Of a stretch of 64,000 bases of DNA, positions 7,649 to 17,406 are shown piece after piece. The notes under the pieces are model-generated. The model was not told where the DNA came from. It worked only from the letters and a program-made list of their open reading frames with translations, and did no database searches. The DNA is from Salinarchaeum sp. Harcht-Bsk1 (GTDB taxonomy: Archaea > Halobacteriota > Halobacteria > Halobacteriales > Salinarchaeaceae), in the NCBI RefSeq assembly GCF_000403645.1, contig NC_021313.1, positions 2,003,014 through 2,067,013 on the forward strand, given 5' to 3'. The position numbers were made by a program, and so were the translations under genes. Each line of letters starts with the position of its first letter. The stretch's first letter is position 1.

Positions 7649-7719
7649 GACTGGACGTTTCCGCGGCCGGTGCCTAAGGATTCCGGACGGGCTTTGTGAC
7701 GTGGGGTTCAAGCGGGCCC

Positions 7720-8943
7720 ATGCGCCTCGGCCTCGTCGTGAATCCGGTCGCCGGCATGGGCGGTCGGGTCGGCCTGAAGGGCACCGACGGGAAGGTCGAG
7801 GCCGCCAGGGAACGCGGTGCGGAACCCCGCGCACCGGAACGCGCCGCCGAAGCGATGGCTGCGTTCGCCGAACGTGCCCCCGACGCCAGCGTCTTCGCCG
7901 GTCCAGGCGAGATGGGTGCCGCCGCTACGAAGGCGGCGGGATTCACCCCCGTCGTCGTCGGAGACGTCGATCCCGTGGCGACGGAAGCCCCTGCTTCGAC
8001 GACCGCCGACGACACGCGGGCGGTGGTCACGGCACTCGTCGACCGCGGCGTCGACCTCGTGCTGTTCGTCGGCGGTGACGGGACGGCCGTCGACGTAGCA
8101 AAAGCGCTGGACGCCGCCGAGGCTGTCGCTGGCGATGCCGTCTCCGAACCCGACGAATCGACGCCGATGCTCGGCGTTCCGGCGGGCGTCAAGGTCTACT
8201 CCTCCGTCTTCGCGGTGACGCCACGGGAGGCAGGCCGGATCGCCGCGGAGTACGAGCACGTCGAGGACCGTGAGATCAACGACATCGACGAGGACGCGTA
8301 CCGGGAGGGCGCTGTCGAGACGGAACTCCGCGCCGTCCGACCGGTCCCGGTCGCGGAGGGCGTCCAGGCGAGCAAACAGCTCGGCGGCGGCAGCGTCGAG
8401 GGGCTCGTCGAGGGGTTCCTCGCCGACCTCACCCCCGGAACGACCTACGTCTTCGGCCCGGGGAGCACGGTCGGCGCGATCGAGGACGCGCTCGGGATCG
8501 ACGGCTCGCCGCTCGGCGTCGACGTCTGGCGAGCCCCCGAGCCGTTCGATCGGCCGCCGAGTGCCGACGCGCCGCCCGAGGGCGAACTGCTCGTTCGCGA
8601 TGGGAGCGCGGACGAGATTCGCGCCGCGACGATCGGGGAGGCTGCCGACTCGCCAGACGACGAGGCCGCGGCTGACGACGGCACCGATGCGGCCGCGGCT
8701 GACGTCGTCGTGGTCGTCTCGCCGATCGGCGGCCAGGGGTTCCTCTTCGGCCGCGGCAACCAGCAGATCGCGCCGGACGTGATCCGGGCCGCCGACCTCG
8801 CCGTCGTCGGCTCCCGTCGCAAACTCGACGGCGTCGGGGTGCTCCGCGTCGACACAGACGATCCCGACCTCGACGAGTCGCTCCGCGGCTGGCGAAAGGT
8901 TCGCGTCGGACGCGTCGAACACCGCCTCGTCGCCGTCGAGTGA
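7720..8943 (+). CDS. ATP-NAD/AcoX-type kinase family protein
   Basis: This is a 407-residue NAD-kinase-like protein. It begins MRLGLVVNPVAGMGG, has the diagnostic GGDGTAVDVAKAL loop (GGDGT) near residue 120, and a later PAGVKVYSSVFAVTP block followed by GPGSTVGAI. These are features of the long ATP-NAD kinase-like family (often annotated AcoX or ATP-NAD kinase) rather than canonical NadK, so the phosphorylated substrate may differ. An acidic linker (residues about 315-330) is lineage-typical. ATG 7720 is chosen over the in-frame start at 7696 because the family N-terminus begins at MRLG. Confidence 0.88.
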   Translation: MRLGLVVNPVAGMGGRVGLKGTDGKVEAARERGAEPRAPERAAEAMAAFAERAPDASVFAGPGEMGAAATKAAGFTPVVVGDVDPVATEAPASTTADDTRAVVTALVDRGVDLVLFVGGDGTAVDVAKALDAAEAVAGDAVSEPDESTPMLGVPAGVKVYSSVFAVTPREAGRIAAEYEHVEDREINDIDEDAYREGAVETELRAVRPVPVAEGVQASKQLGGGSVEGLVEGFLADLTPGTTYVFGPGSTVGAIEDALGIDGSPLGVDVWRAPEPFDRPPSADAPPEGELLVRDGSADEIRAATIGEAADSPDDEAAADDGTDAAAADVVVVVSPIGGQGFLFGRGNQQIAPDVIRAADLAVVGSRRKLDGVGVLRVDTDDPDLDESLRGWRKVRVGRVEHRLVAVE

Positions 8944-12817: not shown

Positions 12818-13075
12818 TCAACCGAAGTACCGTGGGTCCGCGCCACTGTCCTCCTCGGCGTCGTCCTCGAACGAGACTTCGTAGAGCGGCGAGAGGTAGG
12901 TGACCCGGACCATCTGGGTGGAGAGCACGTCGACCGAGACGTTCTCGGCGCGGTCGGGGATCGAGAGCCGCTCGCCCGGCCGTCGGAGCTCGGAGACGAG
13001 CCGGTACTGCCGACCCCAGTTGCTTCCCCGGGGGCCGACTGGCGTCGTGGCCCCCGACCTGTCTCCCGTGTGCAT
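12818..13075 (-). CDS. Small conserved-looking hypothetical protein (85 aa)
   Basis: An 85-residue acidic protein that I do not recognise. It has Arg-rich N-terminal residues, a central strand-rich part (RLSIPDRAENVSVDVLSTQM, then VTYLSPLYEVSFED) and an acidic tail ending ADPRYFG. There is no membrane segment or cysteine. ATG 13075 is preferred because a TATA-like TTCAAATAG (minus strand, near 13100) lies at about -28; codon use and amino-acid composition look coding. Its stop lies 25 bases past the convergent cysK stop. Confidence 0.65.
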   Translation of the reverse strand: MHTGDRSGATTPVGPRGSNWGRQYRLVSELRRPGERLSIPDRAENVSVDVLSTQMVRVTYLSPLYEVSFEDDAEEDSGADPRYFG

Positions 13076-13589
13076 ACCATCTCTCACGGCGGACGCTATT
13101 TGAATCTTTAGGTGACAGTTACCACACGCCGTCCTCGGTAATCGGCGGCAATACAGCCGAACGTCTCGCGGCAGATACCGCTCCCTGCACCGTGTTTCTC
13201 GGCTTACTACGGATCGGGAGTTTGGAGAGGCAGATAGTGATTGAAATATGGTATATACGTGGTACGTACCGGGCTCGTACGTGGGTCGAAGCATCCGAAC
13301 GACTGAACGAAGCGCTCGGAATGATGAACCGAAGCGCTCCGACCGACAGAACGAAAGTCCCGAACGGAGCGAACCGCTCGAACGGGGGAACGGAGCCGAA
13401 CGGGGGAACGGAGCCGAACGAAACGCTCGAACGGCGGATTGCAACGGGTGGAGGGCCGAAGCGTCGCGTGGGCGATCAGACCGCCTGATCGCGCACGATT
13501 GGGAGGCGCCGACCCGGCCGGCGTCGTTCCGCACCGTGCCGACCGACTGCGGCGTGGAGGGACCGTGTGTCAGCGGGAAGCGACCGCCG
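13076..13589. other. 514-base region without a gene: AT-rich palindromes and an 18-bp tandem repeat
   Basis: Around 13240-13290 sits unusually AT-rich sequence with GGTATATACG and the perfect palindrome GGTACGTACC (13261-13270) near a second CGTACG. Downstream, 13379-13414 is a 2-copy tandem of the 18-mer CGAACGGGGGAACGGAGC, embedded in GAACG-rich sequence. Open frames here look non-coding (Arg/Ser-rich). The AT-rich block resembles regulatory DNA but no plus-strand gene follows it. Confidence 0.5.
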
Positions 13590-14105
13590 CTACTGGAACG
13601 CGATCGTCCGGCGACGGCGCGACTCGGTTTTCGGGATCGTCACCGTGCAGACGCCGTCGTCGTGGGTCGCTTTCGCGCCCTCGACGTCGGCACCGGGCGG
13701 GATCTGCACGACCCGTTCGAGGTGGGTCGGCCGTTCCAGCAGGAGCGGCGAGCGTCCTTCCTCGGGCTCCTGCTCGCGGACGGCGGTGACGAGGAGGGTC
13801 TGCTCGTCGGCCCGTAGCTCGATCTCGTCCTCCTCGAAGCCGGGCGTATCTACGTGGATCAGGACCTCGTCGGCCGTCTCGTAGACGTCGATCGGCGGTA
13901 CGACGACGGACGGCTGCCCGGCCGCTGTCGGCTCGTCGATGCCACTGGGCTGGCCCATGGGCGGTTGCGGACCGGCGCTTGCCGCCGCGGCCTGCCCCGC
14001 GAACTGCGCCTGTGCTGGCATCGCGCTGCCGGCTGATTGCTGGCCGAGGCGGCTCGCTGTCCGGAGCTGCCCGGTCGGCCACCAGGCATCGCGGGGCTGG
14101 CTCAT
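13590..14105 (-). CDS. Hsp20/alpha-crystallin small heat-shock protein
   Basis: The 171-residue protein has a disordered Gln/Ala/Pro-rich N-terminal part (residues 1-65) and an alpha-crystallin domain: PPIDVYETADEVLIHVDTPG, IELRADEQTLLVTAV, RVVQIPPGADVEGAKATHDDG, VCTVTIPKTE. Such chaperones bind unfolding proteins without ATP. Its ATG overlaps the TGA of the upstream Gln-rich gene (ATGA at 14102-14105), so the two are probably translationally coupled. The N-terminus shares compositional bias with that neighbour (GQQSAGSAMPAQAQFAGQ), suggesting physical association. Confidence 0.9.
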   Translation of the reverse strand: MSQPRDAWWPTGQLRTASRLGQQSAGSAMPAQAQFAGQAAAASAGPQPPMGQPSGIDEPTAAGQPSVVVPPIDVYETADEVLIHVDTPGFEEDEIELRADEQTLLVTAVREQEPEEGRSPLLLERPTHLERVVQIPPGADVEGAKATHDDGVCTVTIPKTESRRRRTIAFQ

Positions 14106-15196
14106 GATTGCTGGGCCCACTGGCCGGTCTTGGGCTGTCCGAAACCGCCCGTACGCTCGGTGCCGGTCGTCGGTTGGAGCATCCCCGTGGCTTGCAGCCA
14201 CGACGCGATCGGTGCCAGTTGCGCCTGCTGGAAGGCCTGCCCGAGTTCCGCGAACCGCTGGGCGACGTCGTTGGCCTGCTCGAGGAACGGCTGCATCGAC
14301 TCCATGCCCGTGCCTCCGCCGGCCATCTGCTGGCCGCCGTACTGCTGCGCGGCGCCAGGCTGCTGGCTCTGCTGGGCGAAACCAGCCGTTCCCTGCTGTC
14401 CGATCTGGCTGGGCTGCGATCCCACCCCGGTCGGCTGTGCTCGCTGTCGCCCGTACCGCTGGGTCTGGAGCTGTCCCGACTGGCGTCCCATCTGCTGCTG
14501 GGACTCCTGGGGGTACTGGGACGGCTGCTGCCGTGGTTGCCCCTGCTGGAGCTGCTGATAGCCCTGCTGTGGCGACTGCGACGCGGGCTGCTGGCCGCTC
14601 TGCCCGATGCCCTGGTGCTGGCTACCCTGCTGGGGCGCCTGACCGCCCGTCACGTGCTGCGTTGAACTCTGCTGTCGTGGGTACTGCTGCTGGAACGGTT
14701 GCTGCTGGCCGAGCCCCTGCTGTGGCAGCTGTTGCTGTGGAGCCTGCTGGTGGAGGGCTCCCTGCGTGGAGGCTCCGTGCTGCTGAGGCACCTGCTGGGC
14801 CGACTGCTGCTGTGGAATCTGTTGCTGGGGGATCCCCTGTTGGGACGGCTGTTGTGGGAGCTGCCCCTGCGGCACGTGTTGGACCGGCTGCTGAGGTATT
14901 TGCTGTTGCGGAGATTGCTGCTGAGGAGTTTGCTGCTGGGGCATCTGCTGCTGTGACTGCTGCGGAGCCTGCTGCTGTGACGGCTGTTGCTGCGGGAACT
15001 GCTGGGCTTGCTGCTGGGGCTGCTGTGCGTACTGCTGTCGATACTGCTGGGACTGCTGCGTGGGTTGTTGCTGCATAGGGATGTACGAGGATACGCGATC
15101 CGTGGGGACGGTACCGCCTGTGCGACTGCCGGGCGTCGGCGGCGCTGCGCCGGTCGTCGCGGAGCGCTGTGGCTCCTGCCAGGGGTGCTGTTCCAT
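14102..15196 (-). CDS. Glutamine-rich low-complexity (prion-like) protein coupled to Hsp20
   Basis: I do not recognise a family. The 364-residue product contains about 129 Gln by my count (roughly 35 percent), mixed with Pro, Ser, Gly and a few Tyr/Phe, from residue about 40 to 300: runs such as QQQPTQQSQQYRQQYAQQ. Only the end looks foldable, with an amphipathic helix (FLEQANDVAQRFAELGQAFQ). There is no signal peptide or membrane segment. Start ATG 15196 is chosen over GTG 15247 because a TATA-like GGTTTAAT (15249-15256) would start transcription downstream of the GTG. The stop overlaps the Hsp20 start. Opposite-strand Leu-rich frames are shadows of the CAG/CTG composition. Confidence 0.85.
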   Translation of the reverse strand: MEQHPWQEPQRSATTGAAPPTPGSRTGGTVPTDRVSSYIPMQQQPTQQSQQYRQQYAQQPQQQAQQFPQQQPSQQQAPQQSQQQMPQQQTPQQQSPQQQIPQQPVQHVPQGQLPQQPSQQGIPQQQIPQQQSAQQVPQQHGASTQGALHQQAPQQQLPQQGLGQQQPFQQQYPRQQSSTQHVTGGQAPQQGSQHQGIGQSGQQPASQSPQQGYQQLQQGQPRQQPSQYPQESQQQMGRQSGQLQTQRYGRQRAQPTGVGSQPSQIGQQGTAGFAQQSQQPGAAQQYGGQQMAGGGTGMESMQPFLEQANDVAQRFAELGQAFQQAQLAPIASWLQATGMLQPTTGTERTGGFGQPKTGQWAQQS

Positions 15197-15474
15197 CGGA
15201 AGTTCGCCGAGGAGCCTCCCTCGACGGGAGGAGGGACTATCGGGCACGGATTAAACCCGGTACACCGTTCGCCCGAGTTCGAATGGGTACGCAGGTGTTA
15301 TGCCGACGACGGCGACGGAGTAGGACGCCACGATGTGGGGCAATGCGATCCTATGGGTCGAGGCCGCCGCGCAAGGTGATCGATACAGTGACAGTCTCTC
15401 ACAGCCTACTCGGGTCACCTGTTACCGCTCGATGGATACAGCCACCGTTCGTCGTATCTGAACGGGACGGAGGG
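15197..15474. other. 278-base gap holding the promoter of the Gln-rich/Hsp20 unit
   Basis: Reading on the minus strand, the TATA-like TTTAA (15251-15255) lies 53-60 bases upstream of the ATG at 15196, giving a leader of about 25-30 bases with a GGAGG-like tract. The rest up to the cupredoxin gene stop shows nothing recognisable. Confidence 0.45.
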
Positions 15475-17019
15475 TCACCCCGTGTCGTTCGTAGCGTTGT
15501 CCATCATGTCGTTATCCACGGTGTCGTTGCCCATCGTCTCGTTGCCGATGGTGTCGTTTCCGATCGTGTCGTTGCCATCGACCGTGGTCTCGTTGCCCGG
15601 TTCAGTCGCGTTCTCCCCGGGCGCACTCGCGTTTCCCTCCGGTTCACTCACGTTACCGTCGGGCGCGGTTTCGTTCCCGGCGCCGTCGTCGGGTGGCCCC
15701 TCCGGCGGCCCGTCACCGTCGTCCGGTGGTCCGTCCGCTCCCCCGTCGTCTTGATCGTCCCCTCCATTGTCGTCGGCATCTTCCTCGTCCACGGGGCCAT
15801 CGCCCTCGGGCGCTCCGCCGCCACGCCGTTCCGCCATCGGCGTCGTCCGGCGCAGTTGCCCTCTGATCTCGCCGCCGGGATGCTGCGTGGTGTGGACGTT
15901 GACGTAGTAGTTCGACGGCGTTTCGCCCACCGCCTGGGCGAGTTCGGGGTCGGCGACGAACCCGGACTCCACGATGGGCTCCTCCGGGAGTGCGTCCGCC
16001 AGTTCGCCGTCGCCGCTCCCGTCGAGTTCGTCGTTGAATACGACGAGCGGGGCGACGACGGGACCGGCGACGTCCGCCCCGCCTTCGTGAATGTGGGCCT
16101 GCGTGACGCCCTCCACGTCCTCGACCAGGAGTTCCCAGAAGAGGCCGACCGGCGTCGGGACGACGCGAGCGCAGCCGCTGGCCTCGGTGAAGACGCCCTG
16201 GTCCGCGGCGCTCAGTGCAGCGGTCGTCGCCCCCGGGTCCGACGGGTCGAAGTACTCGGGGGGCAGCGTCTTGCTCTCCGCGGGGAGGTCGCTCCACGCG
16301 ACGCTGCCCTGGTCGGCGATCGTCTCCGGATCGAGGGCGGACTCTCGGAGCACCGTCGCGGCGAGTCCCTGCGGTGGGATCGGCGATTCTGGGCTGGGGA
16401 TTGCTTCGCCCCACTCGGCTTCCGGTGGCGCCTCCGTCGCCGGGCCGCTCGCCTCGCCGACGACGATCCGGATCACCATGCCCGCGAACTCGTGTGGGAA
16501 ACAGAAGAGGTCGTAGACGCCGGGCTCCTCGAAGGTGTACAGGAAGTACGAGTCGGTCCAGAGCACCGGCGAGGAGATCGGGCCGACGCCGTCGGGGACC
16601 CGCTGGGTGTAGCCCAGTTCGGGGTGATACGAGCTGATCGTGTGGTGTGGCGAGGCCAGCGAGAACTGGACGGTGTCGCCCGGGTCTACGGCCAGGCCGA
16701 CAGGATCGAAGACGAACTCCGGGATCGGGACGCCCGGCTGTTCGCGTTCGATCGTGTCGAGTGCGACCTCGTGGTCGACCTCGACGGGCGGCTCGACGTC
16801 GGCGGAGGCTGCTGGGAACCCGAAGAGGGGATCGACCATCGTCGCGCCGTCCATCCCGTCGCCGTCCGTGCCGTTCCCGTTCGTCTCGTTGCCGTCGTCC
16901 TGTGCGGTCACGACCGTGCCGCCGAGCGCGCTGAGGCCGATCCCCGCCGCGAGCGCGCCGACGACGGAGCGCCGGTCGAGTTCTGGCATCGCCGGTCGAT
17001 CGTCTGGTGGGTCCGACAT
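15475..17019 (-). CDS. Secreted cupredoxin (halocyanin-like) plus CHRD domain protein with sequon-array tail
   Basis: The 514-residue protein has an N-terminal twin-arginine-like signal (ELDRRSVVGALAAGIGLSAL), then a cupredoxin domain with type-1 copper ligands visible as His in SPHHTISSYH and Cys/His/Met in LFCFPHEFAGM. A CHRD domain follows (QAHIHEGGADVAGPVVAPLV, then NYYVNVHTTQHPGGEIRGQL). The last about 120 residues are an acidic Gly/Pro/Asp linker and then roughly eleven N-x-S/T sequons in close series (NET, NVS, NAS, NAT, NDT and so on). It probably acts outside the cell membrane. ATG 17019 places the RR motif correctly. Confidence 0.87.
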   Translation of the reverse strand: MSDPPDDRPAMPELDRRSVVGALAAGIGLSALGGTVVTAQDDGNETNGNGTDGDGMDGATMVDPLFGFPAASADVEPPVEVDHEVALDTIEREQPGVPIPEFVFDPVGLAVDPGDTVQFSLASPHHTISSYHPELGYTQRVPDGVGPISSPVLWTDSYFLYTFEEPGVYDLFCFPHEFAGMVIRIVVGEASGPATEAPPEAEWGEAIPSPESPIPPQGLAATVLRESALDPETIADQGSVAWSDLPAESKTLPPEYFDPSDPGATTAALSAADQGVFTEASGCARVVPTPVGLFWELLVEDVEGVTQAHIHEGGADVAGPVVAPLVVFNDELDGSGDGELADALPEEPIVESGFVADPELAQAVGETPSNYYVNVHTTQHPGGEIRGQLRRTTPMAERRGGGAPEGDGPVDEEDADDNGGDDQDDGGADGPPDDGDGPPEGPPDDGAGNETAPDGNVSEPEGNASAPGENATEPGNETTVDGNDTIGNDTIGNETMGNDTVDNDMMDNATNDTG

Positions 17020-17406
17020 AGCACGAAACACATCGGCCACCCGACGGATTGCTATTCGCGAAGTATCGACGCGTAACGCGGTGTTAGGTCCGTCCAAGCC
17101 GGTTTACTTCCGGAACTGCTCCAGCTCGCCGATGGTCTCATCAGTTCCGCGTCACGATACGCTCGGCTTAGCTGGTCCCCACGTCCGATCGGCCGATCGA
17201 ACGCTTCCCCGACCGAACGCGCTGCAGGCCCGGGTACGATCGGGTTTGTCGGCGCCGGCGCTGTCGTTGTCGGCGCCGGCGCTGTCGTTGTCGGCGCCGG
17301 AGCAGTTGCTGTCGACGCCAGGGCTGCCGCTGTCGGCGTAGCGCGTGCCGCGAAAAATGACCGCCGGGGGAGTGATCGAACGGGGCGATTCAGTCGCAGC
17401 GGCGAT
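17020..17406. other. 387-base gap with a 21-bp tandem repeat
   Basis: The stretch holds the cupredoxin promoter region and a tandem repeat (listed separately). Short minus-strand frames here translate to Thr/Ala/Pro repeats but lack a start or domain, so I do not call a gene. Confidence 0.5.
17248..17340. repeat. 21-bp tandem repeat, about 4.4 copies
   Basis: Units start at 17248, 17269, 17290, 17311 and 17332. Units 1 and 2 are identical over their length (GTCGGCGCCGGCGCTGTCG plus TT), later ones diverge. The 21-base period equals seven codons, and the minus strand reads as TTTAPAP-like repeats, so it may be a remnant of a Thr/Pro linker. Confidence 0.75.

Follow-up and report, generated by a model that had tools for sequence, protein, structure and literature searches.

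A subfamily of haloarchaeal Hsp20 joined to glutamine-rich proteins, an apparent chaperone-plus-scaffold module

Some haloarchaea possess a subfamily of Hsp20 that is joined to a glutamine-rich (Q-rich) low-complexity protein and usually also to a new small protein; judged from the genes, the set looks like an undescribed chaperone-plus-scaffold module. The Q-rich protein is tied to this one Hsp20 subfamily by gene coupling across five haloarchaeal families, and is sometimes fused to it. Small heat-shock proteins that control low-complexity proteins are known chiefly from eukaryotes. A preliminary description of the locus in Salinarchaeum sp. HArcht-Bsk1 held the coupled pair to be undescribed, and no paper describing it was found among CC-licensed PMC papers. 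The observation made there is confirmed, and its interpretation as a self-assembling scaffold made with its own chaperone is partly supported. We add to it an invariant cysteine in the Hsp20, a third gene, a module promoter, natural fusions and a patchy, all-or-none distribution.

Results

A Q-rich gene overlaps an Hsp20 gene

The window (the whole 64-kb stretch of Salinarchaeum DNA that was analysed) contains three module genes:

12818 to 13075, (-) strand: third module gene, encoding a small protein of 85 aa as annotated from the ATG at 13075; start codon uncertain
13590 to 14105, (-) strand: GVC-type Hsp20 gene, 171 aa, matching PF00011 with 51.8 bits
14102 to 15196, (-) strand: gene for the Q-rich low-complexity protein, 364 aa, ATG at 15196, TGA at 14104-14102

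The ATG of the Hsp20 gene (14105-14103) overlaps the TGA of the Q-rich gene (14104-14102) in an ATGA at 14105-14102, as originally noted. The estimate of about 129 Gln in the 364-aa protein proved exact, a codon count giving 110 CAG and 19 CAA (35.4% of residues). The remaining composition is marked by 0.3% Asn, 11% Pro, 11% Gly, 2.5% D+E and no Cys. A D+E content of 2.5% is very unusual among haloarchaeal proteins, and in a cytosol of molar KCl an uncharged chain of this kind should behave very unlike the acidic proteome. Michelitsch and Weissman reportedly defined Q/N-rich prion-like proteins by at least 30 Q+N per 80 residues. The window protein reaches 45 and no other ORF of the 64 kb reaches 20, while the other full-length Q-rich partners described below have 26-61, the majority exceeding 30. 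The earlier designation of the protein as prion-like stands as far as Gln content is concerned, but not for the rest of the composition: with almost no Asn and many Pro and Gly residues, amyloid is not especially likely.

The 364-aa protein is the sole ORF of the window with at least 18% Q, and no second Q-rich ORF was found either in the 64-kb window or in 306 kb of neighbourhoods, which together define the scope of this statement. Likewise, no Q-rich ORF was seen in 150 kb around bacterial Hsp20s. A strict DNA pattern for Q spacing gave no match in the organism's own genome, a single contig of 3,255,260 bases (PMC3715672); as the window's own gene was also missed, this result is uninformative. 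The Q-rich protein had no match in Pfam, NCBIfam, PADLOC or PHROGs. The neighbouring gene at window 15475-17097 (-) encodes a CHRD domain and a plastocyanin-like copper-binding domain, followed towards the C-terminus by N/T/G/E-rich repeats.

The pair is conserved in five haloarchaeal families

Searched with the window Hsp20, 394 haloarchaeal genomes yielded a distinct group of matches above 70 bits, set apart from the remainder. In the window and 20 other genomes a Q-rich frame lies directly upstream of the Hsp20 gene on the same strand, so that the recurrence of Q-rich frames ahead of haloarchaeal Hsp20 genes, originally put forward as a check, was indeed observed. The 21 two-gene loci are spread over the families f1, f4, f5, f8 and f12. 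The stop-to-start spacing is -4 (ATGA) in 10 of them, -1 in two and between +5 and +17 nt in the remaining ones, of which one has a GTG start. Two further genomes, G290 and G265, hold the Q-rich region and the Hsp20 domain in a single ORF, bringing the total to 23 modules in 394 genomes (21 two-gene and 2 single-chain). Hsp20s with Q-rich N-termini were also found in G305 and G245, lacking the GVC motif considered below.

The closest pair of Q-rich proteins (G172/G102) is 90% identical, with 45 of the 77 nucleotide changes at third positions and a dS of 0.27, a dN of 0.056 and a dN/dS of 0.21. More distant pairs give dN/dS values of 0.33-0.97, in a range where the repeat alignment is unsafe. 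These data indicate that the Q-rich frame is under purifying selection where this is measurable, and argue that it is translated rather than spurious, as the preliminary description assumed. We consider the two genes to be a real, conserved and coupled pair, translated to judge by the selection. Across the partners 22-52% Q and 2-9% D+E are retained despite drift in sequence and length, and such retained composition with changing sequence is as expected if a bulk property matters.

In the f12 genomes with the module, the common neighbours are a divergent FAD-dependent oxidoreductase gene and a DUF6149 gene. In f12 congeners without the module these two genes are adjacent, all three module genes being absent from the interval (an empty site). 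A different neighbour pair is common to f5/g58, and neighbours vary in the other families; the sister species G002 is without the module. Genomes have either the complete module or none of it, the opposite of the orthologous loci with a missing or frameshifted Q-rich frame that would have spoken against the original proposal.

A cysteine marks the dedicated Hsp20

The PF00011 score of the window Hsp20 (51.8 bits, cut-off 20.8) identifies an alpha-crystallin domain, and its profile matches solved small heat-shock proteins, e.g. 3w1z and Hsp16.5; it falls short of the NCBIfam cut-offs for both archaeal equivalogs, Hsp14 and Hsp20. The N-terminal region, correctly recognised at the outset as Gln/Ala-rich, consists to 74% of Q/A/P/G/S/T. 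All 23 module Hsp20s, single-chain forms included, have Cys in place of the Leu of the GVL motif towards the end of the alpha-crystallin domain; the resulting GVC stands in the context DDGVCTVTIPK in the window, and reads GMC in one protein (L051). This Cys aligns with Leu of 3w1z, and the I-x-F tail with its I-x-I. The C-terminal I-x-I/V position is I-x-F (IAFQ, IGFQ) in most two-gene Hsp20s and I-x-V or similar in the others. Among other haloarchaeal and bacterial Hsp20s with a readable motif, Cys was absent from the GVL position. On this alignment we take GVC in place of GVL as a subfamily mark, compatible with membership of the Hsp20 family.

A scan of the 394 genomes with the DNA pattern GVC-x-[IV]-x-[hydrophobic]-PK gave 26 matches, comprising 20 module Hsp20s and six frames (L140, L141, L142, L158, L160 and L162) that are unrecognisable as Hsp20s and were ruled out as such. 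The three remaining module Hsp20s escape the pattern through differences at its other positions. All 23 of the 23 GVC Hsp20s are accompanied by Q-rich sequence, either as a partner protein or within their own chain. Of the 16 other haloarchaeal Hsp20 loci that were read, none has a separate Q-rich gene; no p-value is attached to this association because related sequences are not independent. The suggestion that the Hsp20 is dedicated to its partner is thereby borne out: in this sample the GVC subfamily occurs only with a Q-rich partner or with a Q-rich region in the chain. In a phylogenetic tree the two-gene Hsp20s separate from other Hsp20s with a support of 95/92, one long-branch bacterial row excepted. 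Both single-chain forms lie across this branch, close to proteins whose N-termini are Q-rich or long.

The Q-rich chain ends in unrelated C-termini

Six modules (type I) have a Q-rich protein with a C-terminal domain predicted to form a four-helix bundle (pLDDT 92.4). The nearest solved folds are Csp3-type copper storage proteins (TM 0.84-0.87, Foldseek E ~0.01), and the domain profile matches haloarchaeal DUF326 proteins with a probability of 97% (E 9e-12), although the copper-binding Cys residues are mostly lost. A 45-residue motif is common to the C-termini of another six modules (type II). The window Q-rich C-terminus matches neither type. The preliminary description had expected its C-terminal helix FLEQANDVAQRF to be shared by the family; this was not upheld, as the helix found no convincing homologue when used as a probe of the 394 genomes. 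It is dissimilar to the C-terminal domains of related Q-rich proteins and was ruled out as a family mark. Three unrelated kinds of C-terminus, together with the kept composition, point to the Q-rich chain rather than a fold as the constant feature.

The four-helix domain with Q-rich tails is also present in many other haloarchaea, with no Hsp20 seen downstream. Within this wider family (L110-L133, from f4, f8 and f17) some members keep a few Cys (WCADKC...CARLC) and others none. The profile of the domain (A1) matches 166 of the 394 genomes, the weaker matches including ordinary DUF326 proteins. In L127 and L130-L133 (f17) the Q-rich/four-helix gene adjoins an NAD/ATP-kinase-like gene, a relative of which is located at window 7696-8943 (+), ~5 kb from the module, possibly by coincidence.

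A small beta-strand protein accompanies most modules

The third gene was first noticed by comparison, downstream of the Hsp20 gene in both G027 and the window, and was detected by tblastn with 16 of the 23 modules. It follows the Hsp20 gene on the same strand, at 127-333 nt in those measured and at 514 nt in the window, is convergent in the single-chain G265, and is absent from type I modules and G290. The homologues, of 60-85 aa, share a conserved core of ~60 aa, 'YRLVSELRRPGE...VRVTYLSP'. In 339 genomes, strong matches to a profile of the small protein are confined to the 16 genomes with module copies; as the profile was built from these 16 sequences, the absence elsewhere is the informative part. 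A weak match in G158 was judged unconvincing. AlphaFold models the protein as a three-stranded beta sheet (mean pLDDT 86), for which a fold search gave no structural match (best E 0.36), nor did family collections and the PDB provide any match to the sequence. No plasmid relatives of the small protein and no viral-contig relatives of the Hsp20 were found, and a mobile-element origin was rejected on these grounds.

An additional stand-alone copy of the small-protein gene is present in G165 (L200, G165:C9); neither an Hsp20 gene nor a Q-rich gene was seen up to 1.5 kb away. In f12 (L084, L086, L094, L099 and others) the small gene has an apparent conserved promoter of its own, GCGAAACNGTCTTAGTAG, ~80 nt before the ATG, and its leader in several genomes contains a candidate GC-rich hairpin. 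Short tandem repeats (CGAACGGGGGAACGGAGC and similar) occupy window 13287-13420, within the 0.5-kb gap between the Hsp20 and small genes.

A predicted promoter is specific to the module operon

Two further elements were located upstream of the Q-rich gene:

15251 to 15281, (-) strand: predicted promoter, with direct repeat CGAACTCGGGCGAACGGTG (15281-15263) followed by TATA-like TTTAAT (15255-15250)
15215 to 15237, (-) strand: possible 5'-leader hairpin GTCCCTCCTCCCGTCGAGGGAGG, from minimum-energy folds only

The motif TGAAYTC-nn-GTGAACTRTC-n-TTTAT, which places a direct repeat of 10-base period ahead of a TATA box, is common to the region upstream of the Q-rich gene in most f12 genomes, G286 (f8) and G103 (f5). 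With up to 3 mismatches allowed, a scan of 24 genomes gave a single match to the pattern in each of nine, at the module operon, and no control matches. A matrix derived from nine sites of other genomes, the window being excluded, was then applied to the 64 kb. The best site, at 15281-15251 (-), scored 15.9 bits compared with 6.4 for the runner-up; it has diverged, given the 39-50 bits of the training sites. By these scans the predicted promoter is specific to the module operon. Its position speaks for a start of the Q-rich gene at 15196 (ATG) and against the in-frame GTG (15247), which sits at the TATA box.

The promoter repeat resembles the GvpE site, and GvpH is an Hsp20-like gas-vesicle protein. 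There was no sign of a gas-vesicle regulon, as the promoter pattern is confined to the module operon in the 24 genomes scanned, and the recurrent neighbours included no recognisable gas-vesicle gene. An inverted element resembling GTCCC-n-GGGAC lies between the TATA box and the Q-rich ATG in the window and in f12 leaders, and could act as an RNA hairpin or an operator.

Discussion

A proposed split sequestrase-like device

By analogy with yeast Hsp42, we propose that the module is a split sequestrase-like device or scaffold, in which the Q-rich chain is under the control of a dedicated Hsp20; we give this reading a probability of about one half. The near-uncharged Q-rich chain would self-associate in the salt-rich (molar KCl) haloarchaeal cytosol, with the Hsp20 made at the same place and moment through ATGA-coupled translation. 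The Q/A/P/G/S/T-rich N-terminus of the Hsp20 probably allows it to join the Q-rich assembly, where the alpha-crystallin domain could hold clients or stop the assembly from hardening. It is possible the invariant Cys confers a response to redox state or metal, the weakest step of the model, and the small beta-strand protein would serve as an accessory. Condensate or prion behaviour we only infer.

The split-sequestrase model draws on the conserved pair, the one-to-one association, the natural single-chain forms, the module-specific promoter, purifying selection and all-or-none presence. No heat-shock element links the module to stress. Furthermore, the presence of the module in only 23 of 394 genomes means it is dispensable for general proteostasis, and the occurrence of the wider family of type I partners without an adjacent Hsp20 suggests that such Q-rich proteins can work without one.

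A bolder version, which we offer tentatively and rather doubt, is a membraneless compartment of haloarchaea that has a genetic module to itself: the Q-rich protein would be the condensing scaffold, the single-Cys Hsp20 would tune its material state (possibly by redox), the beta protein could be a clamp or regulator, and the set would be expressed from the module-specific promoter. If true, this would be an archaeal scaffold-chaperone pair inherited as a single unit. In either form, whether a small heat-shock protein controls a dedicated low-complexity scaffold can be put to the test with only two or three small genes, in archaea amenable to genetics.

Alternative explanations

The dedication of both chaperone and promoter would also fit a Q-rich protein that is a structural component of a cell body (granule coat, inclusion or storage body), with the Hsp20 as its assembly chaperone and neither misfolded clients nor stress involved. 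The third protein could then be a further component of the body. However, no body-specific enzyme adjoins the module, and a class III PHA synthase was detected in no more than 6 of the 23 module genomes (and in 4 of 11 module-free relatives), which makes a role as PHA granule protein (phasin) unlikely; the phasin assignment was rejected on this co-occurrence. We consider a structural body in general unlikely. A chemical role in metal or redox stress, based on copper or thiol chemistry, is suggested by the Hsp20 Cys, invariant in 23 of 23, and by the relation of the type I domain to DUF326/Csp proteins in both profile (E 9e-12) and predicted fold (TM 0.84-0.87). This domain is, however, largely without the copper-binding Cys and restricted to six modules, the window not among them, and the window Q-rich protein lacks Cys altogether, leaving such a role improbable.

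The patchy distribution, clean empty sites in congeners and family-specific neighbours, combined with strict pairing and translational coupling, are features that an accessory toxin-chaperone or defence-like cassette might also display, with an aggregating Q-rich protein held in check by the Hsp20 and the whole gained and lost as a unit. Yet no module protein matches PADLOC (E 0.1), viral or plasmid relatives were not found, both genes are under apparent purifying selection, and the stable synteny in f12 and f5/g58 suggests long residence; we give this explanation little credence. It is scarcely conceivable that the Q-rich frame, instead of being a protein gene, arises as an artefact of low-complexity CAG-like repeats. 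The DNA is certainly repeat-rich, and long open frames exist on the opposite strand too, as is usual at high G+C, but 20 other genomes retain the frame ahead of their Hsp20, in many cases with stop and start codons that overlap; it shows the third-position excess and dN/dS of 0.21, and is preceded by a conserved promoter at the right distance.

Comparison with known systems

The four-helix domain of the type I partners recurs, flanked by Q-rich tails, in the wider family L110-L133. This family differs from the module in that no Hsp20 is found among the acidic frames just downstream, the recognised neighbours being dph5-like or NAD-kinase-like, and its genomes gave no match in the GVC pattern scan. 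The Csp copper storage proteins (DUF326, PF03860) resemble the module in the four-helix bundle of the type I domains, but the copper-ligand Cys residues are mostly lost in type I and the domain is restricted to 6 of 23 modules. The window Q-rich protein does not qualify as a Csp, having neither a four-helix match nor Cys. With ordinary archaeal Hsp20/Hsp14 the module Hsp20 shares the alpha-crystallin domain (PF00011, 51.8 bits). In contrast to these proteins, it has GVC and not GVL, mostly I-x-F and not I-x-I, a Q/A-rich N-terminus and, always, an associated Q-rich protein.

We know of no counterpart to the GVC motif or the third gene in the Hsp42 system. The haloarchaeal chain further differs from Hsp42 in being Q/P/G-rich with almost no Asn, and its two parts are encoded by distinct, coupled genes in 21 genomes, the window's included, rather than joined in one chain. 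We therefore do not class the module as an Hsp42-type sequestrase, the likeness being one of working. According to Grousl et al. 2018, as cited in PMC13287201, yeast Hsp42 sequesters misfolded proteins by means of a prion-like N-terminal domain and an alpha-crystallin domain. The likeness to the module lies in a low-complexity Q-rich or prion-like region that works with an alpha-crystallin domain, sequestration by the module itself being an analogy. The resemblance to Hsp42 is extended by the single chains of G290 and G265, in which the Q-rich region likewise precedes the alpha-crystallin domain.
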